From Elusimicrobia bacterium GWF2_62_30 (GTDB lineage Bacteria > Elusimicrobiota > Elusimicrobia > Elusimicrobiales > UBA9959), in the NCBI GenBank assembly GCA_001799995.1, contig MGUK01000095.1, positions 62,001 through 126,000 on the forward strand: DNA of 64,000 bases, read 5' to 3'. Numbering within the stretch: the first letter of the stretch is position 1; each line of letters starts with the position of its first letter. Made by a program: the position numbers and the translations under genes. Under the pieces are notes generated by a model, which did no database searches, was not told the DNA's origin, and saw only the letters and a list, made by a program, of their open reading frames with translations. Positions 26,731 through 57,293 of the stretch are shown piece by piece.

Positions 26731-28326
26731 ATGAACATCAAACTTATCAGCCTCAGCGGCATTGACGGTTCCCCGAATTCCGGTTTTGTGAACCATCCCC
26801 CGCTGGCGCTGGCTATTTTCAAGGCCTTCCTGAAGGGGCATTCCGTCGGGCTGGACGACCTGGGCATACGGCTGATACACGAGGAAGAGCTGCTGCAGGA
26901 GCTCTTCTCCCTGGGTTTTCATAACGATCCCGGCGCGGCCGACGATTATTTAGCGGGCCGCAGGCAAGCCCCGGCCATCGACCGGGTCTTCGAAAAAATA
27001 CTCGCCATGGTAGAGCTGAAGAACGCCCGGCTAGTGGGGCTCTCCGTCCCCCACAACCAGTGCCTGGCGACGGCCCTGGTGCTGGCGAAAAAGATAAAGG
27101 AAAAAACGGGGACCGAGATCGTGCTGGGCGGGTTCTCCTTCGTAAAAGGCATCGAGAAGGATTTTTTCCGGAAATATCCCTTTGTGGACCACGTAAGCTT
27201 CGTGAAATCTTTCCGCCCTTTCCTGGACCTGGTAGAAGCCATGGAGAAGCACGGTGACGTTTCAAAGATCCACGGGATGGCGTGCAAAGGTTTCATCAAG
27301 CCGCCCGAGATGGGCAACGACCGGGTGGACGAACTTCCCAGGCCGGATTTCGATACCCTGCCGCTGGACGCCTACAGGAATATCCCGAGAACTTTAAAGC
27401 AGTTCTTCCGGTATAACGCCGGCCGGGAGCTGGCCCTGCCGTATTATTTCATGGGCGGCTGCATCTATAACTGCAGTTTCTGCGGCCGGAACATAAAAGA
27501 CAAGAGGGTGAACTTCAAGCCCGTGGCCCGGGTGGCCGGCGAGCTGGCTTTCCTGGCGAAGAAATACCGCACCAACTGTTTCTATTTTCTTAATAACGCC
27601 GTCAACCTGAGCGACAAGTACCTCAACGAGTTCTGCGACGAGATAATAAAAAAACGGGTGCGCATCCTGTGGAGCGATTCGGCTAAACCCAAGAATCTGG
27701 ATAAAGCCCTGCTGCTCAAGATGAGCCGGGCCGGGTGCATCTCCCTGACCTGGGGCGTGGAATCCGGCAACGAGGAACTCCTGCTGAGCATCAACAAGCA
27801 GCATACGGCCGTAAGCGCCGCGCAGACGCTGCGCCATGCCCACGAGGCCGGGATCTGGAACCGGGTCAACCTGATAGTCGGCTATCCCGGGGAGACGGAA
27901 AGCCAGTTCCGGGACACGCTGGATTTCATCAGGGACAATATAGATTTCATAGACACGCTGGAGGTGCATAAGTTCTTTTTATCGACGCCCTCCATAATCG
28001 CCTCGAACCCGGAGAAATACGGGATAAAGGTCAGGGACAATCTCCGTAACGAAGGGGAACCGGATTTCAAATGTTACGGGTTTGACGAGGTGAACGGCGT
28101 AAAATGGGAAGAAAAACAGAAACAGCTGGAGCGGCGGCATCGCGCGACGGTCTCGTTCTTCCAGAAACTCAAGAATGGGACGTCCCTGCCCAACTTGGAC
28201 CTCTCTTATAATCTTTTTTACCTGTACAAAAAATTCAAGACCAAGGCGGCCGTGCTGAAGCAGCTGAAAAAAGCGGCCGCTTCCGCCGGGACGAGGCGCC
28301 GGGAAGGCGCGGACCGGCAGTACTGA
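26731..28326 (+). CDS. Radical SAM protein of the B12-binding-domain type (paralogue A)
   Basis: A 531-residue protein. Residues about 1-190 look like a cobalamin-type Rossmann domain (LVGLSVPHNQ, LGGFSFVKG), though the B12-ligating DxHxxG motif is not visible. The radical SAM core begins with C244-x3-C248-x2-C251 (CIYNCSFC), which holds the [4Fe-4S] cluster, and includes GCISLTWGVESGNEELL and VNLIVGYPGETESQFRDTL, typical of this class. The substrate is unknown. It is a full-length paralogue of the gene at 29858-31477: shared blocks include NLSDKYLNEFCD/NLSDKFLDGLCD and LYKKFKTK near the C-terminus. It stands alone, convergent with the SGNH-TPR gene. Confidence 0.87.
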   Translation: MNIKLISLSGIDGSPNSGFVNHPPLALAIFKAFLKGHSVGLDDLGIRLIHEEELLQELFSLGFHNDPGAADDYLAGRRQAPAIDRVFEKILAMVELKNARLVGLSVPHNQCLATALVLAKKIKEKTGTEIVLGGFSFVKGIEKDFFRKYPFVDHVSFVKSFRPFLDLVEAMEKHGDVSKIHGMACKGFIKPPEMGNDRVDELPRPDFDTLPLDAYRNIPRTLKQFFRYNAGRELALPYYFMGGCIYNCSFCGRNIKDKRVNFKPVARVAGELAFLAKKYRTNCFYFLNNAVNLSDKYLNEFCDEIIKKRVRILWSDSAKPKNLDKALLLKMSRAGCISLTWGVESGNEELLLSINKQHTAVSAAQTLRHAHEAGIWNRVNLIVGYPGETESQFRDTLDFIRDNIDFIDTLEVHKFFLSTPSIIASNPEKYGIKVRDNLRNEGEPDFKCYGFDEVNGVKWEEKQKQLERRHRATVSFFQKLKNGTSLPNLDLSYNLFYLYKKFKTKAAVLKQLKKAAASAGTRRREGADRQY

Positions 28327-28351
28327 CCTTCCCCGGGCGGTTTGCGCGCAG

Positions 28352-29836
28352 CTACCTGACCCCGAAGTAGCCCGACAGGGCGTCCGCGGCGGACTCCGCG
28401 ATCAGGTCGTTGCCCGGGCCGGTGCAATGGCCGAAATTGCCGGCGAACATATCCTTGAAATAATAGGTGTAGCCTTTTTCCCGCACCGCTTTCCGGAAGG
28501 CCCGGTCGTTGTCGATGAAAATTATATCGCCGGCGTCCTCGAACAGCGCCCGCAGCGGCGCCGGGTCGCACAGCGGGTACTGCATCACCGCCAGGCGTAT
28601 GCCCCGGGACTTCAGCGCCCGCCGCAGCTCGGCGAAGTTGGCGCGGGTGGTAGCCGTGAACATCCCGCGCGTGGAGGAAAGCCTGGCGGCGTGCTTGCGC
28701 GCCAGCTCCGGGCGCCCGCTTTCCGTATAGACGGCGGCCAGGGCGCCCTGGACCTTTTCATTATAAGGGTCCAGTTCCAGCGCTTCCCGCATCAGGTCTT
28801 CCGCTTTTTTGAACTCGCGGCGGCTTATATACAGCCAGCATAATTCGAAGGCCGCCTCCTCCCGGATCCCCAGGGGGGCGCCGGGGGCGAGCGCTTTGAG
28901 CAGGGCCGCGTCCGCTTTTTCGGGCAGGCCGTGATCCTTGTAGGCCCTGCCCACGTAGTACCAGTTCGCGGCGCTCGGGTTAAGCTCCGCCGCCTTTTCC
29001 AGCAGCGGCAGTCCGCGCGCCGGGTCCTTCTTCTGAAGGATAGCGTACATCCCCAGCGTCCAGGGGATAAAGCTGTTCTTCGGGGCCAGGCGCGCCGCGC
29101 GCAAAAGCAGCTCCTCGCCTTGTTTGCCCAGCTCCGCGTCGTGCTTCTTCCACCCGGCGTCCAGCGCCCAGTACCGGCCGAGCAGGTACAGGGAGGCCGC
29201 GTCGCCGGGGTCCCGCGCGATCTGCCCGCGCAGCGCCGCCTCCTGCCGGGCCATGTCTTTCTTGCCGTCCAGGTAAGGGAGATACGGGTCTACGGGGCCC
29301 GAATAGGGCGCGGCCTGCGCCGGGACCGGGACCGGCAGCGGCCGGGGGGCGCCGCCTTTATTGAGGAGGAGCTTCGTTAATTTGTACAGGCGGAAATGCC
29401 TGAACAGCCGGCTTTCCGCGCCGGCTATGCCGTCGTAATACCGGATGAAGCCGTCGTTCAGGCCCATCATGGCTATCACCAGGCCGGGCCGGACCTGGTC
29501 GAGGTTCTTTTCAAGCTCGCGCATGAGCTCGGAACTGTTGACGCCCGCCATGCCCTTGTTGATGACGCTGAAGCGGGCCTCCGGGTAGCGCCGCGAGAGC
29601 GCGCGTTCCAGCCGGACGGGCCAGGCGTCCTCGCCCCCGGCGGTGGTCGACTCCCCCAGGCACATGATGCGGTAGCCCTCGCGGCCGACGGCGATGCGGT
29701 TGCGCCGTTCCTGCGCCGCGCGGTAAGCGAAACCGCCCAGGCGCAGGGCCGCCTCCGCGCTTAACAGGGCGAAGAGGGCCCCGAGCAGCAGGACGACGGC
29801 CTTCTGGCCCGCAGGCCGCTCTTTGGAAATGTTCAT
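28352..29836 (-). CDS. SGNH/GDSL-type hydrolase with TPR region, membrane anchored
   Basis: A 494-residue protein with an N-terminal membrane helix (AVVLLLGALFALLSAEAALRLG), then SGNH-fold blocks: GESTTAGG with the likely nucleophile Ser63, a block II region NKGMAGVNSSE, and block III MMGLNDGF. The middle (about residues 200-390) is a set of TPR-like helical repeats (YYVGRAYKDHGLPEKADAALLKAL). The C-terminal end includes GHCTGPGNDLIAE, where the Asp/His of the triad would be expected. It probably acts on an ester in the envelope, such as an acetylated glycan or lipid. It follows the radical SAM gene at 29858 by 21 bases, so the pair is one operon. Confidence 0.78.
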   Translation of the reverse strand: MNISKERPAGQKAVVLLLGALFALLSAEAALRLGGFAYRAAQERRNRIAVGREGYRIMCLGESTTAGGEDAWPVRLERALSRRYPEARFSVINKGMAGVNSSELMRELEKNLDQVRPGLVIAMMGLNDGFIRYYDGIAGAESRLFRHFRLYKLTKLLLNKGGAPRPLPVPVPAQAAPYSGPVDPYLPYLDGKKDMARQEAALRGQIARDPGDAASLYLLGRYWALDAGWKKHDAELGKQGEELLLRAARLAPKNSFIPWTLGMYAILQKKDPARGLPLLEKAAELNPSAANWYYVGRAYKDHGLPEKADAALLKALAPGAPLGIREEAAFELCWLYISRREFKKAEDLMREALELDPYNEKVQGALAAVYTESGRPELARKHAARLSSTRGMFTATTRANFAELRRALKSRGIRLAVMQYPLCDPAPLRALFEDAGDIIFIDNDRAFRKAVREKGYTYYFKDMFAGNFGHCTGPGNDLIAESAADALSGYFGVR

Positions 29837-29857
29837 CGTGTTCCCAGCGGACCGCGG

Positions 29858-31477
29858 CTAACGTTTCCCGGCGCCGCCCGGCTTGCGTTTTGACAGGTGC
29901 GGTTTCATGGCGACCAGGGTGGAGACTTCCTTGAGGTGCGCCCGCACCGCGTTCTTGGTCTTGAATTTCTTGTACAGGTGGAAAAGGTTGTAGCTGTGGT
30001 CCTGGTTGGAAAGCAGGACGTTCTTCTTCAGTTCGCGGAAAGTCGAGACCACGGCGTGGCAGCGCCGGTCCAGCTGCGCCAGCTTCTCTTCCCACTTCAG
30101 CCCGCCCACCTCGTCGTAAGCGTAGCATTTGAAGTCCGGCCCCGTGTTCTGCAGGTCGATGTCCTTCACCTCTATGCCGTATTTTTCCGGCTCCGACATG
30201 ATGGTGGACGGGCAGAGGAAGAACTTGAACACCGAGAGGTTGTCGATGTAGTCCGCGTTCTCCCGGAGGAACTGTAAAGTTTCCCGGAACTGCTCCTCGG
30301 TCTCGCCGGGGAAGCCGACTATGATGTTCGCCCGGTTCCAGATGCCGGCTTCGTGCGAATTGCGCAGCGACGCGGAAGCTTCTTTAGTGGTGTGAAGCTT
30401 GTTCATCTTCTTGAGCACCCCGTCGCAGCCCGACTCCAGGCCCCACGTCAGCGAGATGCAGCCGGCCCGGCGCATCTTCAGCAGCAGGTCCTTGCTGACG
30501 TTCTTGGGCTTGGCCGAATCGCACCACGCGATGTTGAGCCTGCGCTTTATCATCGCGTCGCAAAGCCCGTCCAGGAACTTGTCGCTTAAATTGACGCAGC
30601 TGTTGACGAAGAAGAAGCAGTCCGTCCTGTGCTTCTTCTTCAACGCGGCCACTTCCTCCGTTATCCTGTCCACGGGCTTGAAGGTCACCGCCCGGTGCGT
30701 AATGGCCGGGCGCTTGCAGAAGCTGCAGTTGAAAGGGCAGCCGTCCATGAAGAAATACTGCAGCGGCAGCACTTTCCCGGCGTTGAAGCGGTAATACGGC
30801 TGCGAGGATTTAGGCAGTTTCCTGTAGGTCTCCAGCGACAGCTTTCCGAAATCCGGCGCGGGCAGCTTATCCGCCGCGTCGCTGGACTCCCGGGGATGGA
30901 CCATGTGCCCTTTGCTCGCCAGGCCGCGTATGACCGGCGCTTTTTTGCCCGAGTCCAGCGCCTTTACCAGCTCCAGGAAAGGATAGAAGGACCTTTCGAC
31001 GGCGGCGTAGTCCACGCAGGGGTATTTTTCGAAGAAATCCTCCGCGATGCCCTGCAGCATGGTGAACCCGCCGAAAACTATCGTCGCCCCGGCCGCGTCC
31101 TTAATCTTCTTCGCCAGCACCAGCGCCATGGGCAGGTAGCTGCCGTGAGGCACGGCTATCCCCACCACCCGGGCTTTTTTGTAGTCTACCTTGCGCAGTA
31201 TCCGCGCGAAGACCTTGTCCAGTTCCGGGCTGTTCTCCCGGCCGGCCAGCCAGGCGTCGGCCGCGCCGGAGGCGCGCAGGCCCAGCGCGTTTATCTCCCG
31301 CAGCAGGCCGCCGTCGCGTATCAGCTCTATGCCCAGGTCGCTTATCTCCGCGTCGTGGCGGTCCTTGAGAAAAGCCCGGTAAATGGCCAGCGTCGTGGGG
31401 GGGTGGTCCAGGAAATCCGCGTCGGGATTGTTCTGGTAGCCGTGCAGGCTGTTAAGGCTGATAAGCGTGATCTTCAT
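29858..31477 (-). CDS. Radical SAM protein of the B12-binding-domain type (paralogue B)
   Basis: A 539-residue protein closely similar along its whole length to the gene at 26731. The radical SAM cluster motif is C247-x3-C251-x2-C254 (CPFNCSFC), preceded by the same FRFNAG/YRFNAG...YFFMDGC region and followed by GCISLTWGLESGCDGVL and IIVGFPGETEEQFRETL. The N-terminal Rossmann-like part (VVGIAVPHGSY, VFGGFTMLQG) lacks the DxHxxG motif. The C-terminal 30 residues are very basic. It is co-transcribed with the SGNH-TPR gene. A shared pathway for both paralogues is inferred; the substrate is unknown. Confidence 0.87.
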   Translation of the reverse strand: MKITLISLNSLHGYQNNPDADFLDHPPTTLAIYRAFLKDRHDAEISDLGIELIRDGGLLREINALGLRASGAADAWLAGRENSPELDKVFARILRKVDYKKARVVGIAVPHGSYLPMALVLAKKIKDAAGATIVFGGFTMLQGIAEDFFEKYPCVDYAAVERSFYPFLELVKALDSGKKAPVIRGLASKGHMVHPRESSDAADKLPAPDFGKLSLETYRKLPKSSQPYYRFNAGKVLPLQYFFMDGCPFNCSFCKRPAITHRAVTFKPVDRITEEVAALKKKHRTDCFFFVNSCVNLSDKFLDGLCDAMIKRRLNIAWCDSAKPKNVSKDLLLKMRRAGCISLTWGLESGCDGVLKKMNKLHTTKEASASLRNSHEAGIWNRANIIVGFPGETEEQFRETLQFLRENADYIDNLSVFKFFLCPSTIMSEPEKYGIEVKDIDLQNTGPDFKCYAYDEVGGLKWEEKLAQLDRRCHAVVSTFRELKKNVLLSNQDHSYNLFHLYKKFKTKNAVRAHLKEVSTLVAMKPHLSKRKPGGAGKR

Positions 31478-31579
31478 CGTTTTTCCGGGAACGGCTCAAT
31501 ACCCAATTTACCATTTTACCCCCGCGGCGGTCTAATCCCCGCCGGGCCCCTGCCGCCGGCTTCCGCCGCCGGGGAAATA

Positions 31580-31588
31580 TGATATTAT
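31580..31588 (+). promoter_or_regulatory. Extended -10 promoter before the CX8C radical SAM gene
   Basis: TG-A-TATTAT (31580-31588) would start transcription near 31595. That excludes an ATG at 31579 and supports the start at 31624. The divergent 146-base gap also holds GC-rich palindromic sequence (around 31522-31575) and an unclear leftward promoter. Confidence 0.5.
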
Positions 31589-31623
31589 TGTTCTGCATAC
31601 TGCCGGTTCCTTCCGCGGTACCT

Positions 31624-32982
31624 ATGAAAAAGATAGCCCTTGTCTACACCCTCGGTGGCCGCTACGACGAAATCCTGCCGCCGCTGTGGGCCCTGGCGCT
31701 GGCCACGTACATGCGCCAGGCCGCCCCGGGAATAAAAGTCGACATCCTCGACGAACAGGTGCTGGGCGCGAAGCGGCTGGCCGGGCTGCTGGCCCGCCGC
31801 TACGACCTGGCCGGGTTCAGCCCCGTTACCCAGACCTACGGGAACGTGCTGAAATTCGCGCGCGTCGCCAAGAAGAACGGCTCGATGGTGGTTTTCGGCG
31901 GGCATTACGCTTCGGCCCTGAAGAAGGAGATCCTGGCCAACAGGGGCCCCGGCTCGGCCGACTACTGCCTGGACGCGATAGTGTGCTACGACGGCGAGAA
32001 AGCGCTGCACGAGCTGGCGCGCGGTACGCCCTTTGGCGGCATCAAGAACCTGGTCTACCTCACCCCCGGCGGGCAGCTGGCCGAGAACCCGGTCGAGATC
32101 ATGGATTTCTCCAGGCTGCCGCCGGTGGATTATACCCTGCTGGACCTGGAGCGGTATTTCAAGATCCAGGAACGGAAGATGGGCAAGCTCGGCATTGGCC
32201 GGACGCTTTCCTTCATAGCGCAGCGCGGCTGCAAGTGGGCCGCAGGCGCCGGGCGCTGCATCTTCTGCGGCATACAGACCATGGGCGGCGTGCGCTGCAT
32301 CCCGCCGGAGTCCGCCGCCAGGCAGCTGTCCTCGCTTTACAGGAAATACGGCGTGCGCCATGTCTACGAGGCGGGCGACGACTATCCCGCCAACCCCGCC
32401 TGGCTCAGGGAATTCAGCGCCGCGGCGTCGCGCCTGAAAATGCCGGCGCTGGAGGTTTACGCGAAAGCCACCACGCTCAACCCCGCCAATGCCGCGCTGC
32501 TCAAGGCCGCCGGCGTCAAATACGTCTGCGTCGGGGTGGAATCTTTTTCGGACGATATCCTGCGCCGCCTGAACAAAGGCGCGAGCGCGGCGGTCAGCCG
32601 GCGCGCGGTCTCGGTGCTCCTGGAAGCCGGGCTGATCCCCAACACCGCGCTGATACTTGGCCTGCCCGGCGAGACGCGCGAAACCCTTTCGCTGACCCTG
32701 TCGGAGCTGAAAAAGATAGGGTTGCCCCCCGACTGCTGCCAGCGCACCTGCCTGAACATAGTCGCCATCTGCCCGGGGACCAGGCTGTGGCAGATGCTGC
32801 TTGAAAAAGAGCCGAAATACCGGGGGCAGGACCTGCCCGACAGCCATGAGCTGCGGCTTGATTACCTCAAGCACTTCTGCGAAGCGGGGGAAGCGGACCT
32901 CGAGGCGGCCCTTAAGGTCTTTTCCAATTATTTCGCCGCGAGGGCCAAGGCCGGCCGGCCCGGGCGCGGGAAAGCCGCCTAA
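31624..32982 (+). CDS. B12-type radical SAM protein with CX8CX2C cluster motif
   Basis: A 452-residue protein from ATG 31624, which begins a normal Rossmann strand (KKIALVYTLGG) and fits the promoter. The N-terminal cobalamin-type domain shows GFSPVTQTYGN and VVFGGHYAS. The cluster cysteines are C203, C212 and C215 (RGCKWAAGAGRCIFCGI), that is CX8CX2C instead of CX3CX2C; a GC.W....GRC.FC pattern is known in a subset of B12-type enzymes. Later motifs (KYVCVGVESFSDDILRRLNKG, ALILGLPGETRETL) are typical. Its stop codon overlaps the stop of the convergent next gene. The substrate is unknown. Confidence 0.85.
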   Translation: MKKIALVYTLGGRYDEILPPLWALALATYMRQAAPGIKVDILDEQVLGAKRLAGLLARRYDLAGFSPVTQTYGNVLKFARVAKKNGSMVVFGGHYASALKKEILANRGPGSADYCLDAIVCYDGEKALHELARGTPFGGIKNLVYLTPGGQLAENPVEIMDFSRLPPVDYTLLDLERYFKIQERKMGKLGIGRTLSFIAQRGCKWAAGAGRCIFCGIQTMGGVRCIPPESAARQLSSLYRKYGVRHVYEAGDDYPANPAWLREFSAAASRLKMPALEVYAKATTLNPANAALLKAAGVKYVCVGVESFSDDILRRLNKGASAAVSRRAVSVLLEAGLIPNTALILGLPGETRETLSLTLSELKKIGLPPDCCQRTCLNIVAICPGTRLWQMLLEKEPKYRGQDLPDSHELRLDYLKHFCEAGEADLEAALKVFSNYFAARAKAGRPGRGKAA

Positions 32983-34433
32983 AAAAAACCTTTCAGGATT
33001 ATGTTCAGCGCCGCGGGCAGGTTGCGCAGGCGCAGGCGCCGCACGTTCCGGGCTATCTGGGCGGGGCGCAGGTAGAATTCCCGCTGGGCCCTTTTCTGCA
33101 GGCTTTTGAGCTGCGCGGCGGACAGCGAGGGCGTTACCCAGACCGGGTCCTTCCCGGTGAAGGAGAGGTAGGAAGAGTATCTTTCCCAGACGGAAGCGTC
33201 CAGCGACCCGTCCGCCCTCACCCCCGTATCCAATTCTCCGTCTTTTGAAAGTTCGGCGTACAGGGCCGAGCCCGGGTAGGGTATCAGCATGCTGAACTGG
33301 GCCATGTCCAGCGGCAGGCTCCTGGCGAAGCGTATCGTCTCCAGGGCTTCCTCATAGGTCTCGCCGGGCAGGCCGAGTATGAACAGCCCGGAAACGTACA
33401 TGCGCGAGTTCCCTTTTACCATTTCCACCGTCCGGCGCACCTGCGCGACGGTGGTCGTCTTGTTCACGGCGTCGAGCAGGCGCTGTACGCCCGATTCGAT
33501 GCCGAAGGAAAGCTCGTAGCAGCCCGCGCCGTCCAGCGCCGCTGTCAGTTCTTTATCCACGCAGTTGACGTGGGCGTCGCAGCCCCAGCGGGCTTTCAGC
33601 CCCCGTGCTTTTCTCCCGGCGCAGATCTCCAGCACCCGCCCGCGGTCGCCCAGGAAGAACGGGTCGACTATGGTGAGATAGGACGCCCCGTATTCTTTTT
33701 CCAGCAGTTCCATCTCGGCCAGCACCCTTTGGGCGCTGTTGCGCCTGGGCGCGTCCTTGCCGCGCGCGGCGCAGAAAGAGCAGCCGTAGGGGCAGCCCCG
33801 TGAAGTGGACATGGTCATGGCCGCGCCGCCGCCCCCGCCGATAAAGGCCTGGTTGCTGAGCTCGCCCAGGCCGTAGCGCGAGCGGTCGAGCAGGTCCCTG
33901 GCCGGGAGCGGCAGTTCTTCCAGGTCCTGCGGCGCGGTCCTGTCAGGGGTCCTGGTAACGCCGCCGGCCGCGGCGAAAGAGATCCCGGCGATGCCTTCGG
34001 GCCCGCGTCCCGCCCGCCGCGCCGCAGCTATCTCCAGCATCGCCTGCTCGCCTTCCCCGTGCACCACAATGTCGCAGCAGCCCTGCCGCAGGTACTGCTC
34101 CGCGTAGACGGAGGCGTGCACGTTGCCCAGCACCACCAGCGTCCCGGGCAGTTTTTTCTTGAGCCAGCGCCCGAGGTCGAGAACGTTAGCCCCGCTGCAG
34201 GTCAGCGTGGAGATGCCGACCAGGCCGGGGGCGCGGCGCAGCACGCGTTCTTTAAGCGCCTCCAGCCCGCAGCCTTCCGCGCGGGCGTCTATTATCTCCG
34301 GCTCGAAGCCGCCCTGCCTGAGCACCGCGGCCAGGTAGAGGAGGCCGAGCGGTTCATATTTGGGAACAAGGTGCCGGCCCGCCCCGAGCATAGCCTCGGC
34401 GGAATCGGGCGGATTTATAAGCAGGACCTTCAT
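32979..34433 (-). CDS. B12-binding-domain radical SAM protein, divergent from the RiPP operon
   Basis: A 484-residue protein. I use ATG 34433 because MKVLLINPPDSAEAMLG is the classic N-terminus of this family and a TATAAT promoter lies about 50 bases upstream. The B12-type domain shows YEPLGLLYLAAVLRQGGFE, GISTLTCSGANV and LGNVHASVYAEQYL. The radical SAM motif is C214-x3-C218-x2-C221 (CPYGCSFC), followed by YELSFGIESGVQRLL and LFILGLPGETYEEAL. Enzymes of this type methylate unreactive carbons or rearrange bonds. It shares its promoter region with the peptide/SPASM operon and may act on the same product, but this is inference only. Confidence 0.87.
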   Translation of the reverse strand: MKVLLINPPDSAEAMLGAGRHLVPKYEPLGLLYLAAVLRQGGFEPEIIDARAEGCGLEALKERVLRRAPGLVGISTLTCSGANVLDLGRWLKKKLPGTLVVLGNVHASVYAEQYLRQGCCDIVVHGEGEQAMLEIAAARRAGRGPEGIAGISFAAAGGVTRTPDRTAPQDLEELPLPARDLLDRSRYGLGELSNQAFIGGGGGAAMTMSTSRGCPYGCSFCAARGKDAPRRNSAQRVLAEMELLEKEYGASYLTIVDPFFLGDRGRVLEICAGRKARGLKARWGCDAHVNCVDKELTAALDGAGCYELSFGIESGVQRLLDAVNKTTTVAQVRRTVEMVKGNSRMYVSGLFILGLPGETYEEALETIRFARSLPLDMAQFSMLIPYPGSALYAELSKDGELDTGVRADGSLDASVWERYSSYLSFTGKDPVWVTPSLSAAQLKSLQKRAQREFYLRPAQIARNVRRLRLRNLPAALNIILKGFF

Positions 34434-34482
34434 TGTTGCGCTCGCGCGGCCCGTCCGGCACCCGGCCTCCGCGCGAATTCCA

Positions 34483-34511
34483 ATTATAGCGCAGGCCGGC
34501 AGCTGTTGCAA
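34483..34511 (-). promoter_or_regulatory. Sigma-70 promoter of the leftward radical SAM gene
   Basis: On the minus strand TTGCAA (34506-34511), a 17-base spacer and a perfect TATAAT (34483-34488). It is back-to-back with the peptide-operon promoter, only 18 bases apart. Confidence 0.7.
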
Positions 34512-34529: not shown

Positions 34530-34558
34530 TTGACACCCGGCATATTCTGACGTATACT
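34530..34558 (+). promoter_or_regulatory. Near-consensus sigma-70 promoter of the peptide operon
   Basis: TTGACA (34530-34535), a 17-base spacer and TATACT (34553-34558), the same boxes and spacing as the marR promoter. Transcription would start near 34565, giving a 20-base leader that carries the GGGAGG ribosome site (34575-34580). Confidence 0.8.
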
Positions 34559-34584
34559 ACACCTGGAGCAGTTCGGGAGGTAAA

Positions 34585-34695
34585 ATGCCTACAAAAACCA
34601 AACCAGCCGCGAAACTGGCTGTAAAACTGAATAAAACGCTGAAAATAGAGAAGAAACTGTCACGGTACTGCCGCTCCGGCAGAGTGCTTTGGTAA
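34585..34695 (+). CDS. Candidate RiPP precursor peptide, 36 residues
   Basis: A short gene with all the signs of real expression: a near-consensus promoter, GGGAGG four bases before ATG, and a stop at 34693-34695. The product has 36 residues. The first 25 are a Lys-rich, helix-prone leader (eight Lys, spaced every three or four residues: K4, K6, K10, K14, K17, K20, K23, K24). The last part is SRYCRSGRVLW, with a single Cys29 next to Tyr28 and Arg30 and Trp as the final residue. A SPASM radical SAM enzyme starts 70 bases downstream after a strong hairpin. Short leader-plus-core peptides ahead of SPASM enzymes are the classic substrates in sactipeptide, ranthipeptide, triceptide and mycofactocin-type pathways. 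No known precursor family is recognised. Alternatives are a regulatory leader peptide or a chance ORF. Confidence 0.7.
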   Translation: MPTKTKPAAKLAVKLNKTLKIEKKLSRYCRSGRVLW

Positions 34696-34715
34696 AAACC
34701 GGACAGGTCAAAGCG

Positions 34716-34745
34716 GCGAAGTCCCCGTTACCGCGGGGACTTCGC
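34716..34745 (+). promoter_or_regulatory. Perfect 12-bp hairpin between peptide gene and SPASM enzyme
   Basis: GCGAAGTCCCCG (34716-34727) pairs completely with CGGGGACTTCGC (34734-34745) around loop TTACCG. No T-run follows. It should allow partial read-through or protect the 3' end of the peptide mRNA, so that much more peptide than enzyme is made, an arrangement common in RiPP operons. Confidence 0.85.
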
Positions 34746-34765
34746 GCTATAGGGCGTGGAACGGG

Positions 34766-36253
34766 ATGAAACAACAGCCGGTTTATCTCTTTAAAAAACT
34801 GGGCCGCCGCATAGGCGTCTCTACGGGCACAGGGGATTTCTATCAACTGGCGCCGGGAATTTTCAATTCCCTTAAGAAGTGGAACTGCGAGATCAGGAAA
34901 AGAAGCGGCAAGCTCTCGGCCCCGGCCGCTGAAAAGCTCGCCCGGCGGCTTTCCATCCCCGAAGAGATCTCCGGGCTGTTCCCGCTGCGTCCCGCAAAGC
35001 GGGAAGTCCCGGAAGCCGCCGCCAGGCTGACCGACCTGACGCTGAATATCACCTCCGAGTGCAACCTCCGCTGTATTTACTGCTGGAACGATACCGGCAA
35101 ATATTCCGACCAGGCCTTTAAGAACAGAAAGGCCGGGCCGGCTGCGCAAGCCGGCTGCCTTCCCCCTATGTCCCTGGAAACGGCCAGGGCAGCCGTGGAC
35201 CTGCTGGTCGGGATGAGCGCCGGAGAGAAGCAGCTCGTGGTGGATTTCTACGGCGGAGAACCGCTTAAGAACCTGCCGGCCCTCCTGGGCACCGTGGAAT
35301 ACTGCAAGGCCCTGGAAAAGAAGAAAAAGCTGAAGTTCCATTTCTTGCTGGCCACTAACGGGACCCTGCTCACCCCTGCGCTGGCCGAGAAGCTTCTGTG
35401 CCTCGGCGTGCAGATAGCGGTAAGCGTGGACGGCCCCGGGAAGATACACGACCGGAACAGGCCTTTTCACGACGGGACGGGCAGCTTCGCGGCGATAGCG
35501 CGGAACCTGAAGGGAATGCGTCCGTCAATAAGGCGGAGGCTTGTCGGCAGAACGACCGTCACGCCTTATTACACGGATATGGTCGCGCTTTACGAGAATC
35601 TTCAGGGCCTGGGGTTTGAACGCGTCGAAATATTCGAGAGCGAAGACGCCTGCCACAAAATAACCCCGGGCAGGGAAGCCGTTTTTTTCCAGAAGGCAAA
35701 GGACTTCCGGAGGCTTTTCAGGGAGTATGAACTGCTGGCCGGGAAATACTCCGAAGAGGTCGTCAGGGGCTCCCTCGATTACGGAAAGACCTTTTTCAAC
35801 AGATTCTTCAAACTGATGCAGCGGCTGTATTACAATCAGCAGGTTACCGGCGGCTGCCCCGCCGCCCAGGGGCAGATCGCCGTCTCGGCCGACGGCGAGA
35901 TATTCCCCTGCACTTCTTTTATAGGCATAATGGCCTTTTCTCTGGGGAACGTTCATACGGGCGTGAACCGGAAGAAATATCTGTCGCTGCTGGAAAAAAC
36001 GAAAAAAAGATTCCGGAAATGCGGCAGCTGCCGCCTCTTCAGCGTCTGCGGGACCACCGGCTCCTGCCTCAATATAAACCATTATTTCAACGGTGATATT
36101 TCCATGCCGCATAGCCGGAGCTGCCGGTTATTCGAGGAAAAAATAAAGCTGGCGATGGCCGTGCTCTCGGTCCTTTCGGAAAAGATCCCGGCCAGGCTCG
36201 ACGCCCTTTTCGGACACGATCCCGTGGGGCGGCGCGGGAACGAACTTTATTGA
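34766..36253 (+). CDS. Radical SAM/SPASM peptide maturase
   Basis: A 495-residue enzyme. Residues 1-75 form a small N-terminal domain (VYLFKKLGRRIGVSTGTGDF, then PGIFNSLKKW) of the kind that often acts as the peptide-recognition element. The radical SAM core has C99-x3-C103-x2-C106 (CNLRCIYC) and VVDFYGGEPLKN. The C-terminal SPASM domain has seven Cys: C364, C382 (within GEIFPC, the GX4C motif), C419, C422, C428, C434 and C453. They would hold two extra [4Fe-4S] clusters. Spacing CX2CX5CX5C differs slightly from the canonical CX2CX5CX3C. Family members crosslink or otherwise modify short ribosomal peptides. The 36-residue gene upstream is the obvious substrate. The exact bond formed cannot be predicted. 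Confidence 0.88.
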   Translation: MKQQPVYLFKKLGRRIGVSTGTGDFYQLAPGIFNSLKKWNCEIRKRSGKLSAPAAEKLARRLSIPEEISGLFPLRPAKREVPEAAARLTDLTLNITSECNLRCIYCWNDTGKYSDQAFKNRKAGPAAQAGCLPPMSLETARAAVDLLVGMSAGEKQLVVDFYGGEPLKNLPALLGTVEYCKALEKKKKLKFHFLLATNGTLLTPALAEKLLCLGVQIAVSVDGPGKIHDRNRPFHDGTGSFAAIARNLKGMRPSIRRRLVGRTTVTPYYTDMVALYENLQGLGFERVEIFESEDACHKITPGREAVFFQKAKDFRRLFREYELLAGKYSEEVVRGSLDYGKTFFNRFFKLMQRLYYNQQVTGGCPAAQGQIAVSADGEIFPCTSFIGIMAFSLGNVHTGVNRKKYLSLLEKTKKRFRKCGSCRLFSVCGTTGSCLNINHYFNGDISMPHSRSCRLFEEKIKLAMAVLSVLSEKIPARLDALFGHDPVGRRGNELY

Positions 36254-39396: not shown

Positions 39397-40545
39397 ATGC
39401 CATCCTCCTATAAACTTTCCTGCGCGGTGTGGGAGCTCACGCTCGCCTGCAACCTGAAATGCCTGCACTGCGGCTCCACCGCCGGGGGGCGCCGCGCCGC
39501 TGAGCTTTCCACCCTGGAGGCGCTGGACCTTTGCGCCGACCTGAAGCGGACCGGCTGCCTCGGCGTGGCCCTGATGGGGGGGGAGCCGCTGCTGCGCGCG
39601 GATTTCTTCCTGGTGGCGGCCCGCGTGCGCGAGCTCGGCATGGAACTGTCCGTTATCACCAACGGCACGGTCGCGCCGGAGGGCGTCTTCGGGAAACTTA
39701 AAAAGCTGGAGCCGCGCGCGGTGGCTGTCAGCCTGGACGCGGCGGACCCGGAGCTTCACGACAGGATACGCGGCGCGCAGGGCGCCTTCAAAAAGTCCCG
39801 GGCCTTCATCGAACGCTGCCTCGCCGAAAAACTCCCGGTCAGCGTGATAACCACCGTGCATAAGCTCAATCTCAGGGAACTTCCCAAGCTGCGGGAGCTG
39901 CTGAAGGGCCGCGGCATTGCCTGGCAGGTGCAGACGGCCGGCGCCGAGGGCGGCCGCTTTTCTAAAGAATTCCTGCTGGACCCGGAGGAGTTCTACTCGG
40001 TCGGCCTGTTCATCGAGGCCTGCCGCCGCCAATACCCGCCGGAGGTCCTGCCGGTGATCGGGGCGCACGACCTGGGGTACAATTCCCTGCTCCTGAAGAA
40101 CGTTTCCCTGTACGAAAAATGGGAAGGCTGCCAGGCCGGCACGGCCGTGGCCGGCATCAGGAGCGACGGGAGCGTGCTGGGCTGCCTGGCCATAAACGAC
40201 GACAAATACGCGGAAGGGAACGTCCGCGAAAGAAGTTTTTACGACATCTGGAACGACCCGGCCTCTTTCCGCTATACCCGCGCTTTCAAAAAAGAACAGG
40301 CGGGGCCCAACTGCGCCGCCTGCCCGCACGCCGGGGTTTGCAAGGGCGGCTGCAGCGAGATGTCGCTGATGAAGACCGGGGCCCTGCACAACGACCCGTA
40401 TTGTTTCCGGAGCCTGGAAAAAGATATCTTAAAAGAAGAGCTGAAAAACCCGCTGAGGGCCCTGGGGCTTAAGCTGGGCGGGCGCGCCGCGCGCGGCGCG
40501 GGGCGGCTGGGCCGGATCTTCTCGGGGGGCAGGGAGGGAACATGA
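39397..40545 (+). CDS. Radical SAM/SPASM protein, second copy
   Basis: A 382-residue enzyme with the cluster motif C18-x3-C22-x2-C25 (CNLKCLHC) and MGGEPLLR in the core. The SPASM domain is complete with canonical spacing: C245, C263, then C306-x2-C309-x5-C315-x3-C319 and C336. Relatives modify peptides or act as anaerobic sulfatase or heme-type maturases. There is no short peptide gene beside it, and its stop overlaps a methyltransferase gene, so it may work in a small-molecule or glycan pathway rather than on a peptide. The last 30 residues are basic and Gly-rich. Confidence 0.87.
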   Translation: MPSSYKLSCAVWELTLACNLKCLHCGSTAGGRRAAELSTLEALDLCADLKRTGCLGVALMGGEPLLRADFFLVAARVRELGMELSVITNGTVAPEGVFGKLKKLEPRAVAVSLDAADPELHDRIRGAQGAFKKSRAFIERCLAEKLPVSVITTVHKLNLRELPKLRELLKGRGIAWQVQTAGAEGGRFSKEFLLDPEEFYSVGLFIEACRRQYPPEVLPVIGAHDLGYNSLLLKNVSLYEKWEGCQAGTAVAGIRSDGSVLGCLAINDDKYAEGNVRERSFYDIWNDPASFRYTRAFKKEQAGPNCAACPHAGVCKGGCSEMSLMKTGALHNDPYCFRSLEKDILKEELKNPLRALGLKLGGRAARGAGRLGRIFSGGREGT

Positions 40546-41501
40546 AACTTAATATAGGCTGCGGCTATAACCGCCTGGAAGGCTGGACCAATATCGATAT
40601 AAACCCCGACTCCGCCGCGGACAGGGTCATGCCGGCGCACAGCCTGGACTTCCCCGACGGGTCCGTCTCGGAGATAAAGGCGCTGCAGCTGATAGAGCAC
40701 CTGGGTTTTTTTAAGGCCAAGTATTTCCTGGCCGAATGCTGGCGGGTGCTGGAACCCGGCGGCGGCCTGCTGCTGGAAACCCCGGACATAGAAAAAACTT
40801 TCAGTCTTTTCCTCGACGGGGACCACGCCGTGAAAGAAGCCGCGCTGGGCTGGGTATACGGTTCCGAGACGCCGGGCATGAACCACTTGTATTGTTTCCC
40901 GGCCGGGCTCCTGTCGGCGCTGCTCGAAGAGGCGGGTTTCGAAATAACCGGCAAAGAGGAATTCTTTTACCAGCCTTCCAGGCCGGCGCTGCGCTTTAAA
41001 GCCGTAAAAAAACCGGGGGAAAAAGCCGCGCTCAACGCGGCCCTGCGCCGCAGGCTGGTGGGAAAAGGCCTGGCCGGGCTGGAGGACGAACTGGAGGGAG
41101 CGGGCACGGATTTCGTCATAAAGCGCCTTGTCGCCAGCGGCGGGAACAAGACCATAGCGTTAGAGGCCGCGCTCTACAGCGCCTCCGTAGTACTTGAATG
41201 TTTTTCCATGGAAGAGGAGAACGAGCGCCATCCCTCGGCGCAGGCCTCCGCCTGCGCAAGGCTCTCCGATGCGGGCGTGCAGGCGCTCTTAATGGCCGAG
41301 CTGGAAAAAGCCGCCGGCGCGGGGGAAGTCACCAGCGAACTTTTCAACGGGGTTTTCGAGGGAGGGAAAAAAATGATCGCCTCCGCCCTGGACGGGGCCC
41401 CCGTCGCGCCCGCCGCCGCGCACCAGGCCGCCCCCCGGTTGTTCACCCTGCGGCTGGCGCAGGCTTTCATCGCCAAAAAAAGAACGCAGCCAGGGAAATA
41501 A
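40542..41501 (+). CDS. SAM-dependent methyltransferase with helical C-terminal extension
   Basis: A 319-residue protein. The first about 170 residues are a class I methyltransferase of the type MKLNIGCGYNRLEGWTNIDI (SAM-binding GCG motif), with SLDFPDGSVSEIKALQLIEHL and CWRVLEPGGGLLLETPD. The remaining 150 residues are Ala-rich helices that I do not recognise. The ATG overlaps the stop of the SPASM gene, so both proteins are made together and probably serve one pathway, possibly modifying a cell-surface or secondary metabolite. Confidence 0.8.
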   Translation: MKLNIGCGYNRLEGWTNIDINPDSAADRVMPAHSLDFPDGSVSEIKALQLIEHLGFFKAKYFLAECWRVLEPGGGLLLETPDIEKTFSLFLDGDHAVKEAALGWVYGSETPGMNHLYCFPAGLLSALLEEAGFEITGKEEFFYQPSRPALRFKAVKKPGEKAALNAALRRRLVGKGLAGLEDELEGAGTDFVIKRLVASGGNKTIALEAALYSASVVLECFSMEEENERHPSAQASACARLSDAGVQALLMAELEKAAGAGEVTSELFNGVFEGGKKMIASALDGAPVAPAAAHQAAPRLFTLRLAQAFIAKKRTQPGK

Positions 41502-50722: not shown

Positions 50723-53700
50723 CTAGAACTGGAACGTGAGCGTGCTCCCTATCTGGTACGAAGAGAATTCTTCTTCTTTAAGGTTCTTGCTCCAGAACCG
50801 CTGGAACCCGCCGTTCAGGGTCAGCCGCAGGTTCTTGGCCATTTCATAGTCGGCGCTGGTGTTCAGTGAGAAGAGACGGTTATTGTCGGCGATGGTAATG
50901 GGCGAAGATTTGATGGCGTAGCTGAGCGTGGTGGTCCAGACTATGCGGTTGGTCAGCGCCAGTACCGTTTTTGTGAACGGGATCTTGAAGCCTTTAGGCA
51001 TGGTAAAGTCGGACTTTATCAGCAGGCTGGGCGTGATGATCCGGGTCTGCTGCGTCACTACGCCGAGCGTGGCTACTGTCTTGTCCATGACGTAGTCCAC
51101 CTTCGGGGTGAAGCGGAACTTCCGCCACTGGAAAGCCCCCTGCAGGGTGGCGTCGTTGTGCCGGGTGTCGTTCACGATCTTATCCGTGACCAGGTCGAGC
51201 TTGCTGCCGTACTTCAGGTTGTAGCTGGCCGCGGTGTCCATCCAGTCGAAGATCCTGAAGCGCAGGTCCGCGCCGTAGGCGTCGGATCTTTCCATCGAGA
51301 CGTCCACGGATTCGGTGGTGTTGCGGGAGTACTTCAGGTTGAGGGTGGAATTCTGCGCCCAGCGCCGCGTATGCGTCAGCAGCTCCAGCTGGGAAAGGGA
51401 AACGATCATGTCCGGGAAGGTGCGGTTTATGCTTTTCGAGATCGTGCCGGTGACTTCGGACCGCTGCACCGAATTGGTGTAGTTGTTGGTGATGGAAAGG
51501 GTCTTCAGCGCCGAGGCCGCGCCTTTGATATTGTAGGCTTCGAACGGCTGCCAGCGCTGGTTGGAATTTATGGTATCGCGCATGGTCAGGGAGTTGCGCA
51601 GCGCCAGGTCGCCCGTGGGCGCGATCGGGTCCCTCAGCCAGAGCTTGTTGCGGGTATTGTAGTCCTTCGCTATGTTGGACCAGGAATCGCCGTCCTGGAT
51701 CTGGTAGTTGGAGGAAAGCGACATCGAGCGCAGCAGCCTGTTGGACGGCATCAGGTCATTGACGTTCACCGCCAGGCTCACGCCGCCCTGGGCCGAGCGC
51801 GTCACCGACTTGATCTGGCCGGCCGTATAGACCTGGGAGCTCCTGGAAACCGTCACGGTGGTGGTATTGAGGTTGTTATTCTCCATCGTCGTCACCGAGT
51901 AGTTGGCGGACGGGTTCAGCCAGCGCGCCAGCATGAAGTTGGAGTTCACGTCCACCGTCTGCTGCATGGACTTAGGGTAGCGCTCGTACACGTCGGGGGC
52001 GGAAAGCCGGGCGCGGGTTTCGCGGACGGTCTGCAGCGAATAGTTAGGGTTGATGGAAGAGCCTTTCCACGGGACGAACGTGAGTTTTCCGCCGTAGATG
52101 TCGGTGCGCTCTTTGGTGTTGTAATAGTTTGACAAAACCGCGATCTCGGTCGAGAGCCGGACGGAGTCGTAATTAACCAGGCTGCGCCCCAGGGAGTAGT
52201 TGGCGTTCACCGTGCGCGGCAGCAGGAACAGCGTGCCCGGCACGTTGTAGGAGAAGCTGGCGGCGTAGGTGTCCCTGTCGTCCTTGCGGGCGAGCACGTT
52301 GTAGCTGGTCACGCCTTTGGTGTAATTCATGCCGATACGGGGGAAAGCCCCGGAGCCCAGGGTACCGGAGGCGGTGCCGTCGAATTTTTTCACCTTGCCT
52401 TCCTGCAGCGTGGTGACCAGGTTGTTGGCGCCCGTGGCCGCCGCGTTGGGCGTGACGGTTATCTGTTTGGCGGCGGTCACGTTGATGGGGAAGAAGGACA
52501 GGCGCGTGAGGTTGAGGTAGCCGCTCGCCGTCTCGTTGTCCTGGTTGGTGATGGCCGTGACCGGGGTCTGGAAGCCGCGGTCGACGTAGCGGTGCTTGCC
52601 GCCGACCGTGAACCAGCCGGGAACCTCCACCGAGCCTTCCACCTTGCGCGCGTTGCCTATGCGCGCTATCGGGCCCTTTAGGTGCAGCTCGTTGAAGTAA
52701 ATAGTGCCCGTATGGGGGCTGGCGTCCGTGGCCTCCACGCCGACGCGGAACTGGGAGATCTGCTGCAGCGACGGCAGGCCCACCGAGGACACCGTGATGC
52801 TGTAGGGGGAGGCGTTGGTCCAGACGTCGGGGATGGAATCCCTGGTGATGTCTTCCTGGTTTATCTCTATCAGGTGCCAGCCGTTGGTCCCCAGCGAAGT
52901 AAGCGGGATCGCGACTTTGAAATAGCTGTTGTCGCTGCCGGCCCGCAGGAAGAAACTGACCCCGGACTCGGCCGTGTTGCTGCTGTAGACGAGGAAGCGC
53001 AGCGTCTCGTGCTGGGAGATGTCTATGGCCGAGGAATAGGTGCGGTACGCGTAGCCGGCGGCGGCTCCCGAGGAGGTCAGCGCCGAGTACTGCAGCGCCA
53101 GCGCCTGCTCGCTGACCACGCTGACGTTGTTGCGTTCCTTGATGGCGGTAACGTCGCCGTAAAGGTCGGTAAAGACCTCCGCCGCCCTGCCGCCGGCGTC
53201 ATAAATGGGGTCATAGTCGGTATTGTCGATATTATTCGGCGCGGAAACGTTCAGCGAGCCGCCGGTGCTTTCCACTACGGCCCAGGAATTGCCTACGGCG
53301 GCCACGCGCGCGAACTTTACCACGCCGCTGGTGGCGCCTCCCGGCGTCTGCGTCAGGGAGATGCGCACCTGTTTTATGGCGTTCCACTTATAGCTGTTGG
53401 CGGAGGTGATAGGCATTTCCGCGGTGATGGTGCGCCAGCCGGAGAAATTGATGACCGAGTTCGGCATCGCGCCGTCGAAACCGTAGGTGGGGGAGTTCCG
53501 GTACCCGAAATCGCCGCCGGTGAAGTCCTGCGAGTCCAGGCGGCCGTTGTTGTTGAGATCTTCCGAATCCAGCCGCCCGTTGGAGGCGCCGTAGCGCCTC
53601 GCAGTCTTCCCGGCCGGCCAGTATTCCCAGCCTATGTCTTCGCCGGTGGCCACCTGGCCGTCGCAGTTGGTGTCTTCGCTCCTGGGGTAGCCGTACAGCG

Positions 53701-56083: not shown

Positions 56084-56153
56084 GGGAACAGGACGGCAAA
56101 AAACAGTCCCCCCGGCAAAAAGGGAACTTCGGCGTTCCATGCCGCCGTAGATA

Positions 56154-56159
56154 TATAAT
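56154..56159 (+). promoter_or_regulatory. -10 element 11 bases before lptF
   Basis: A perfect TATAAT with no clear -35. Transcription would begin about five bases before the ATG at 56171, leaving almost no leader. The same AT-rich stretch must also carry the leftward promoter for the SprA-like gene. Confidence 0.5.
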
Positions 56160-56170
56160 AGAATAAATAA

Positions 56171-57283
56171 ATGTTCGTGCCTATAGCCCGCCTGTACGTG
56201 TTGCGCACTTTCGCCAAGCACCTGGTCCTCTCCCTTTTTATCTTCGTCTCGCTGCTGGTGCTGCTCAATTTCGTGCAGATAGTCAACCAGGGCGCGCTGG
56301 CGGGTTTTTCCATGTATTTCCTCTGCGCCAGCCTCCTCTATCTCATTCCGAACATACTGGGGTCCTCCCTGCCGCTGGCGTTCCTGCTGGCTACCCTGCT
56401 CAGCCTGGGGCAGATGTCGCAGGACGGGGAAATAATCGCCCTGCGCGCCGGGGGCTTTTCCTTCTACCAGATCTTTTCCTGGGTGTTCGGGACCGCCGTC
56501 CTCTGCTCCCTGCTGCTGCTGTTCGTCAATAACTGGGCGGGCCCCAAAGCCCTTAAGCGCTCCACCGACTACACGATACTGATGATAGAGCATGTGACCA
56601 AGATCGAGCTCAAGCCCCGCACCTTCCAGCAGCTTTCGGACTGGGTGATCTACGCGCGGGAAGTGAACGGCCTCGGCGGGACCATGCGCGGGGTGAACCT
56701 GCTGCGCCGCATCAACAGGGAAGGCCAGCCCGCCTACGTAACCAAGATGAACGCCGCCTCGGGCCGTTACCGCATGGCGCGCGGGCGCGGGCTGGAAATA
56801 GAGCTTTCCGACGGCCAGTTCAGCCAGACCGACTGCAAGGACGAGGACAAGCTCCTTTACGGGCGCTTCGCCTCGTACCGGACGCTGCTGCCGTTCTACA
56901 ACGGGAGCGGCGGCGCGCGCAAGCTCAACCAGCGCGAACTTTCCACCGGCGATATCTTCGCCAGGCTCAAGGCCGGGCTGCCGGACCCGCTGGTGGAAAG
57001 CAAATACCGCATAGAGGCGGCTTCGCGGATTGCGCTGGCGCTGGCGCCGCTGGCGTTCTTCCTGGTGGGCGCGCCGCTGGGGGTGGCGCTGGACAAGCGC
57101 GGGCGTTCCGCCGGCTTCGCGCTGAGCCTCCTGATCATTTTCTTTTATTACGGGCTCACGATAAGCGGCATGGTGCTGGCGCGCAAATACGAGGCCCTTT
57201 TCCCGTGGGCGGTGTTCGCCCCGTCGGTACTGACGGCGCTGGCGGGGCTCTGGCTCTGGAAAAAGCGCCTGCACGCCAGGTGA
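56171..57283 (+). CDS. lptF: Lipopolysaccharide export permease LptF-like (YjgP/YjgQ family)
   Basis: A 370-residue permease with six TMs in two groups of three (ILNF region VLSLFIFVSLLVLLNFVQIV; C-terminal ALAPLAFFLVGAPLGVAL, LSLLIIFFYYGLTISGMVLA) flanking a periplasmic beta-jellyroll domain. LptF and LptG carry lipopolysaccharide from the inner membrane into the Lpt bridge, powered by LptB. The partner gene follows ten bases later. Which of the two is F or G is assigned by order only. Confidence 0.85.
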   Translation: MFVPIARLYVLRTFAKHLVLSLFIFVSLLVLLNFVQIVNQGALAGFSMYFLCASLLYLIPNILGSSLPLAFLLATLLSLGQMSQDGEIIALRAGGFSFYQIFSWVFGTAVLCSLLLLFVNNWAGPKALKRSTDYTILMIEHVTKIELKPRTFQQLSDWVIYAREVNGLGGTMRGVNLLRRINREGQPAYVTKMNAASGRYRMARGRGLEIELSDGQFSQTDCKDEDKLLYGRFASYRTLLPFYNGSGGARKLNQRELSTGDIFARLKAGLPDPLVESKYRIEAASRIALALAPLAFFLVGAPLGVALDKRGRSAGFALSLLIIFFYYGLTISGMVLARKYEALFPWAVFAPSVLTALAGLWLWKKRLHAR

Positions 57284-57293
57284 GACGGCAACT

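Follow-up and report, generated by a model that had tools for sequence, protein, structure and literature searches.

A short lysine-rich peptide gene and its SPASM radical SAM enzyme as a probable RiPP precursor–maturase pair in Elusimicrobiota and Omnitrophota

What is made by a 36-codon, lysine-rich gene that lies directly ahead of a radical S-adenosylmethionine (SAM) enzyme? The question is raised by a locus in a 64,000-nucleotide stretch of DNA (the window, G000:C95:62001-126000) from Elusimicrobia bacterium GWF2_62_30, whose assembled genome measures 2.9 Mb and is 84% complete. An earlier note, drawn from the letters of the window, read the locus as a ribosomally synthesized and post-translationally modified peptide (RiPP) precursor with a SPASM-type maturase. 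This reading is borne out by an invariant peptide core that co-occurs with the enzyme across genomes and, judged from sequence, peptide and enzyme very probably form a RiPP precursor–maturase pair. The promoter, ribosome site, 36-codon gene, 12-bp hairpin and 495-residue enzyme of that note are all present:

34530..34558, plus strand: sigma-70-type promoter of the short gene, TTGACA-N17-TATACT (-35 at 34530-34535, -10 at 34553-34558), seen in the sequence.
34575..34580, plus strand: Shine-Dalgarno GGGAGG, seen in the sequence.
34585..34695, plus strand: precursor peptide gene of 36 codons (ATG at 34585, stop at 34693-34695), seen in the sequence and in 18 further homologous copies.
34585..34656, plus strand: Lys-rich leader, residues 1-24, with an [IVL]N[KR] motif, from the alignment.
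34657..34692, plus strand: core LSRYCRSGRVLW, residues 25-36, identical in 18 copies and RAAFCRCGRVLW in the 19th.
34669-34671, plus strand: codon within the core for Cys29, the putative thioether donor.
34716..34745, plus strand: perfect 12-bp hairpin between precursor and enzyme (arms 34716-34727 and 34734-34745), seen in the sequence; a putative attenuator or partial terminator.
34766..36253, plus strand: radical SAM/SPASM maturase of 495 aa, from Pfam, NCBIfam, the CteB match, an AlphaFold model and its fold match; domains are leader-binding (RiPP recognition element (RRE)-like, about residues 6-69), radical SAM (94-271) and SPASM (364-453).

The window precursor, MPTKTKPAAKLAVKLNKTLKIEKKLSRYCRSGRVLW, shares all twelve residues of its core with the other members of a set of 18 gene copies from 16 genomes in two phyla. 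Within this set 11 of the 12 core codons vary, always synonymously (Trp has a single codon), and by hand count at least 29 codon states occur beyond the first per position, the last nine codons being partly imposed by a pattern used to search for the peptide. An enzyme-based search that made no use of the peptide returned the same core at every enzyme locus except that of a divergent paralogue. Variation that is exclusively synonymous implies selection on the amino acids, and the short gene looks like a real peptide under strong constraint at that level rather than a chance reading frame. The 19th copy (L066) carries the divergent core RAAFCRCGRVLW, with a second Cys and with Phe in place of Tyr28, which weakens any role for the Tyr hydroxyl. 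All 19 copies share Cys29, Arg30, Gly32, Arg33, Val34, Leu35 and Trp36, and position 28 is always aromatic (Tyr, and Phe once). The earlier note expected variable spacing within Y-C-R...W; the spacing is fixed. Its Lys-rich leader holds insofar as the short open reading frames (ORFs) are Lys-rich, but precursors range from 26 to 40 residues and their leaders vary in length and sequence, except for the [IVL]N[KR] motif with its invariant Asn16. As is general for RiPPs, a short precursor with leader and core is genetically encoded and conserved together with its maturase.

The pair is rare. The nearest named relatives of the enzyme lie in Elusimicrobia and then Omnitrophota metagenome-assembled genomes (MAGs), two of each, and a profile search detected relatives in 3 of 341 Elusimicrobiota and 14 of 384 Omnitrophota. 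Every enzyme copy with an intact flank, save the one divergent paralogue, has a small Lys-rich ORF beside it, with LSRYCRSGRVLW immediately before the stop; this ORF lies upstream of the enzyme and in one case is convergent to it (L024/L055). An independent search for the peptide, with a degenerate DNA pattern for [FY]CRxGRVLW-stop, returned the same three Elusimicrobiota and 13 of the 14 Omnitrophota carriers and no other genome in these sets; in the 14th carrier (G342) the locus is cut at the contig start. The reversed pattern, used as a control, matched nothing in the same sets. Thus neither of the findings that the earlier note named as refuting, the lack of a homologous short ORF near relatives of the enzyme or breaks in its frame, was encountered. 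The similar but distant radical SAM genes of this genome and of genus g12 (L002, L008 and L009) had no short ORF of this sort, terminating in a GRVLW-like sequence, beside them. The position of the ORF ahead of the enzyme gene, with a hairpin between them in the three Elusimicrobiota loci, is also what a regulatory leader peptide would show. That reading, or a chance ORF, is highly improbable given 18 copies with only synonymous core changes and exact co-occurrence with the enzyme. The leader-ORF reading was rejected on the synonymous pattern and because one copy is convergent to the enzyme (L024/L055) and another (L068) has no enzyme alongside.

Not every copy follows the common arrangement. 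Besides its regular pair, genome G358 encodes a divergent second enzyme, 40% identical to that of the window and preceded by MIRLLNRSKGKRRYRAAFCRCGRVLW (L031/L066, G358:C19:5267-6777). This enzyme lacks the C-terminal DPVGRRGN tail and the DACH motif, and four tandem B12 radical SAM genes follow it. The third peptide copy of G358 (L068 1501-1584, G358:C39) is the one with no enzyme alongside; an IS3-type transposase gene lies upstream of it and a sulfatase-like gene downstream, and sulfatase genes also lie beside the pair in L037, L038 and L046. In L048 (G467:C10) a second peptide copy accompanies an enzyme broken into two fragments, with an intact pair elsewhere in the genome; this is decay of a duplicate.

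The enzyme shows which chemistry may be expected. It holds CNLRCIYC, with SAM-cluster cysteines at 99, 103 and 106, and SPASM cysteines at 364, 382, 419, 422, 428, 434 and 453; all ten of these CX3CX2C and SPASM positions are invariant in 17 homologues, as expected of a SPASM maturase. Pfam returns a Radical_SAM match and a slightly sub-threshold SPASM match. NCBIfam ranks PapB first (224.8 bits, against a cut-off of 340 for NF047865), followed by the nif11 maturase (198 bits), QhpD (182 bits) and the SCIFF maturase (169.6 bits, against 425 for TIGR03974). By sequence the best relative in the PDB is CteB, aligned over residues 8-465 (E 2.5e-41), and the AlphaFold model (predicted local distance difference test score (pLDDT) 84.7) also has CteB as its best fold match (5why, E 9.7e-30, probability 1.00). 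By profile, sequence and fold the maturase is closest to thioether-forming maturases.

Comparison with those systems places the pair near them and outside their families. PapA/PapB, the ranthipeptide system of Paenibacillus polymyxa, likewise consists of an adjacent short precursor and SPASM maturase. Its Cys-Xn-Asp/Glu motif is absent here, since neither LSRYCRSGRVLW nor RAAFCRCGRVLW contains Asp or Glu and the core LSRYCRSGRVLW has one Cys, and for this reason the pair is not filed as PapB type. SCIFF precursors are Cys-rich, with six Cys in forty-five residues; the window precursor has one. CteB of the CteA/CteB system (PDB 5WGG, 5WHY) matches over its full length in sequence and fold, N-terminal leader-binding domain included, and has the same ten cluster cysteines (PMC10470005), at about 25% identity. 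By the tests made, which concern sequence, the pair is outside both the PapB and SCIFF families.

The leader-binding end of the enzyme bears on how the peptide would be recognized. Residues 6-69 of the model fold as bbb-aaa, the arrangement of an RRE-like leader-binding domain, and the CteB match starts at residue 8. In L019 the 27-residue precursor and the enzyme share one frame with a single TAA between them, so that a natural read-through chain (P0001) could be modelled with the TAA read as Gly. In that model precursor residues 1-10 are ordered (pLDDT 87) with a strand at 3-5, and disorder extends up to residue 65. The ordered N-terminus fits docking to the leader-binding domain. In PapA a leader Asn has been proposed as required for RRE contact (PMC9413430); the leader here has its invariant Asn16.

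The same core also allows a different chemistry, in which the SPASM enzyme would make a triceptide-like C-C cyclophane, from the aromatic residue 28 to Arg30 or involving Trp36, with Cys29 a spectator or metal ligand. With Cys-Arg after the always aromatic position 28, the core has an aromatic-X-X triplet (aromatic-X-Arg, which three-residue cyclophanes would share), Trp36 is invariant, and matches to cyclophane families exist. These are weak (YhhB 83.9 bits against a cut-off of 445, FxsB 61.2 against 370, GrrM 46.9 against 310), far below the 225 to 170 bits of the thioether maturases; Cys29 is invariant, and the best structure is that of CteB. As the core hardly varies, no triceptide-type motif can be inferred from Y/F-C-R. 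Among the chemical rivals a cyclophane at Y/F28-C-R30 ranks first, yet it is unlikely.

Cues to the role of the product come from B12-binding radical SAM proteins. Adjacency of such genes to the pair is weak evidence because these genomes hold many of them; hence presence and absence were compared. F1a, a gene of 519 aa (L043:10561-12117) nearest to BchE (188 bits, below cut-off), is next to or near a pair copy in six genomes. With the threshold at about 70% identity, every one of the 14 Omnitrophota carriers has it: 13 hold a full-length copy (71-100% identity) and G515 holds a fragment at a contig end (70%). None of 38 non-carriers does; these were chosen arbitrarily, and two of them hold a 48% relative. 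Of seven independent genome pairs, six to seven point the same way and none the opposite way (median p 0.016 in a sign test). In Elusimicrobiota the best genome-wide match to F1a in all three carriers is one orthologous gene, F1b, which also occurs in 1 of 40 non-carriers; its copies are 71-82% identical to that of G034, and it adjoins the peptide in two of the three carriers. The islands around F1a and F1b (L109-L119) often hold U32-family proteins (TrhP relatives) and BchE-like B12 radical SAM proteins, and some hold a UbiA prenyltransferase or CrtI-like desaturase. They possibly encode an oxygen-independent pathway.

Taken together, the pair can be read as a ranthipeptide-like two-gene RiPP module with a frozen core, Cys29 as thioether donor and a tie to a B12 radical SAM protein, a reading by analogy that we consider narrowly probable. 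The leader, with its lysines and its [IVL]N[KR] motif, would dock on the N-terminal leader-binding domain, as the models support; the enzyme would then cleave SAM and take a hydrogen from a core residue, and the carbon that lost it would bond to the Cys29 sulfur, which an auxiliary cluster of the SPASM type would hold in place. The product, by analogy with CteB and PapB relatives, would be a macrocyclic thioether lighter by 2 Da than the unmodified core, whose free mass comes to about 1494.79 Da by hand calculation. PapB likewise holds the Cys thiol on an auxiliary cluster and joins it to a carbon beside a side-chain carboxylate, with loss of 2 Da (PMC9413430, PMC10470005), the acceptor being the beta carbon of Asp (PMC9413430). 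Here the acceptor would lie within RSGRVLW. Since PapB acts on carboxylate-bearing residues and the sole carboxylate of the core is that of C-terminal Trp36, directly before the stop, Trp36 is the favoured guess, followed by Arg33. The BchE-like protein (F1a in Omnitrophota, F1b in Elusimicrobiota), encoded adjacent or elsewhere, would probably modify the peptide further or use the product.

Several observations weigh against this. The core has no Asp, Glu or Thr, the acceptors of PapB- and SCIFF-type ranthipeptides, and every NCBIfam score of the maturase is below its curated cut-off. In the L019 read-through model the core is disordered (pLDDT below 50), so that the modified site is not visible. 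No transporter, export or protease gene is conserved across the neighbourhoods. F1a and F1b share only about 30% identity, and a second B12 radical SAM protein of the islands, intended as a control, is itself partly co-distributed (10 of 14 carriers versus 1 of 38 non-carriers, E<=1e-120); F1a may therefore mark the whole island rather than a direct partner.

The single invariant Cys, the invariant C-terminal residue directly before the stop and the thioether-type enzyme would also suit a sactipeptide-type link from Cys to an alpha carbon, or another Cys-dependent change such as oxidative decarboxylation of the C-terminal residue. This is rather improbable: the nearest characterized relatives, PapB and others alike, join non-alpha carbons. 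About equally improbable is that the modified peptide, instead of being a free natural product, belongs to another enzyme, as a small subunit or as the piece that bears its cofactor, possibly in the service of the B12 radical SAM island. The model would be the gamma subunit of quinohemoprotein amine dehydrogenase, whose maturase QhpD/PeaB ranks near the top of the matches (plasmid-borne copies are 27-30% identical) and performs Cys thioether chemistry on a protein subunit. The frozen core, the missing conserved transporter or protease and the co-occurrence with islands holding U32-family, UbiA or CrtI-like genes would agree with such a role. However, a structural subunit would be expected to be larger than a precursor of 26-40 residues with a variable leader, the analysis turned up no partner enzyme, and QhpD acts on a dehydrogenase subunit, whereas no QhpD-type dehydrogenase genes were seen next to these loci.

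Returning to the favoured thioether module, its product is less likely to be an antibiotic than a cofactor, signal or building block of fixed structure, as suggested by a core that does not diversify. Pyrroloquinoline quinone (PQQ) and mycofactocin arise in this manner, from a fixed-core precursor and a SPASM enzyme with little diversification, although the enzyme here belongs to other families and no companion cofactor genes were recognized. Further still, anaerobic candidate phyla might possess a new class of RiPP, represented by this pair. Its frozen 12-residue core would be crosslinked at a residue that is not acidic (Cys29 to Trp36 or Arg33, or Tyr/Phe28 to Arg30), and tailoring by a BchE-like B12 radical SAM enzyme would give a fixed cofactor, signal or lipid-linked product, not an antibiotic; this combination is conceivable, and we propose it tentatively. 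The undescribed class suggested by the earlier note is at most a possibility: the core motif was not found in the literature, where the single text match is an unrelated immune-repertoire study, but enzyme fold and gene layout belong to the CteB/PapB neighbourhood. No paper was found on a RiPP of this kind in Elusimicrobiota or Omnitrophota, and the peptide natural product is apparently undescribed. A compact RiPP pair from two candidate phyla is open to direct testing; its conserved core without an acidic acceptor should reveal thioether or other radical chemistry outside the PapB and SCIFF rules. A core frozen across genomes scattered over two phyla, together with a co-inherited BchE-like protein, suggests a dedicated biochemical role.

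The scatter itself has a history. On an rpoB tree of 40 of the genomes compared for F1a, carrier status requires nine changes, so carriers are not one clade. By its enzyme G358 is placed among G710 and G609, but by its rpoB in another major group. This patchiness and mismatch suggest, on sequence grounds, horizontal transfer of the pair, with a mis-binned MAG contig as the alternative. A phage or plasmid origin was rejected: viral contigs matched neither the peptide pattern nor the enzyme profile, and the plasmid matches listed were QhpD/PeaB and other radical SAM proteins at 30% identity or less.

Signals for expression are uneven. The window promoter outscores all 300 shuffles of its own upstream sequence, and promoter-like sites reach p<=0.013 at 9 of the 19 peptide copies, the other ten being unremarkable; TTGACA recurs at the equivalent position in L010 and L011. 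A Shine-Dalgarno-like stretch precedes all 19 ORFs. Equivalent hairpins with changed outer pairs occur at all three Elusimicrobiota loci (the window, L010 and L011), followed by TTTT in L010 only.

Roughly half of the Omnitrophota loci have nothing but housekeeping genes around the pair. In the window, four B12-binding-type radical SAM genes adjoin it (26731-34511), the first at 26731-28326 on the plus strand, with a GDSL/TPR protein among them at 28352-29836. The other three are of uncertain membership:

29858-31477, minus strand: B12-binding-type radical SAM gene.
31579-32982, plus strand: B12-binding-type radical SAM gene.
32979..34511, minus strand: divergent neighbour coding for a B12-binding radical SAM protein; the F1b orthologue is another gene, on contig C93 of this genome.

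On the other side, a second SPASM radical SAM protein (nif11-class maturase 3 at 177 bits, below cut-off) and then a methyltransferase-like gene occupy 39397-41501, and a 2230-codon open frame runs on the minus strand at 50723-57415.
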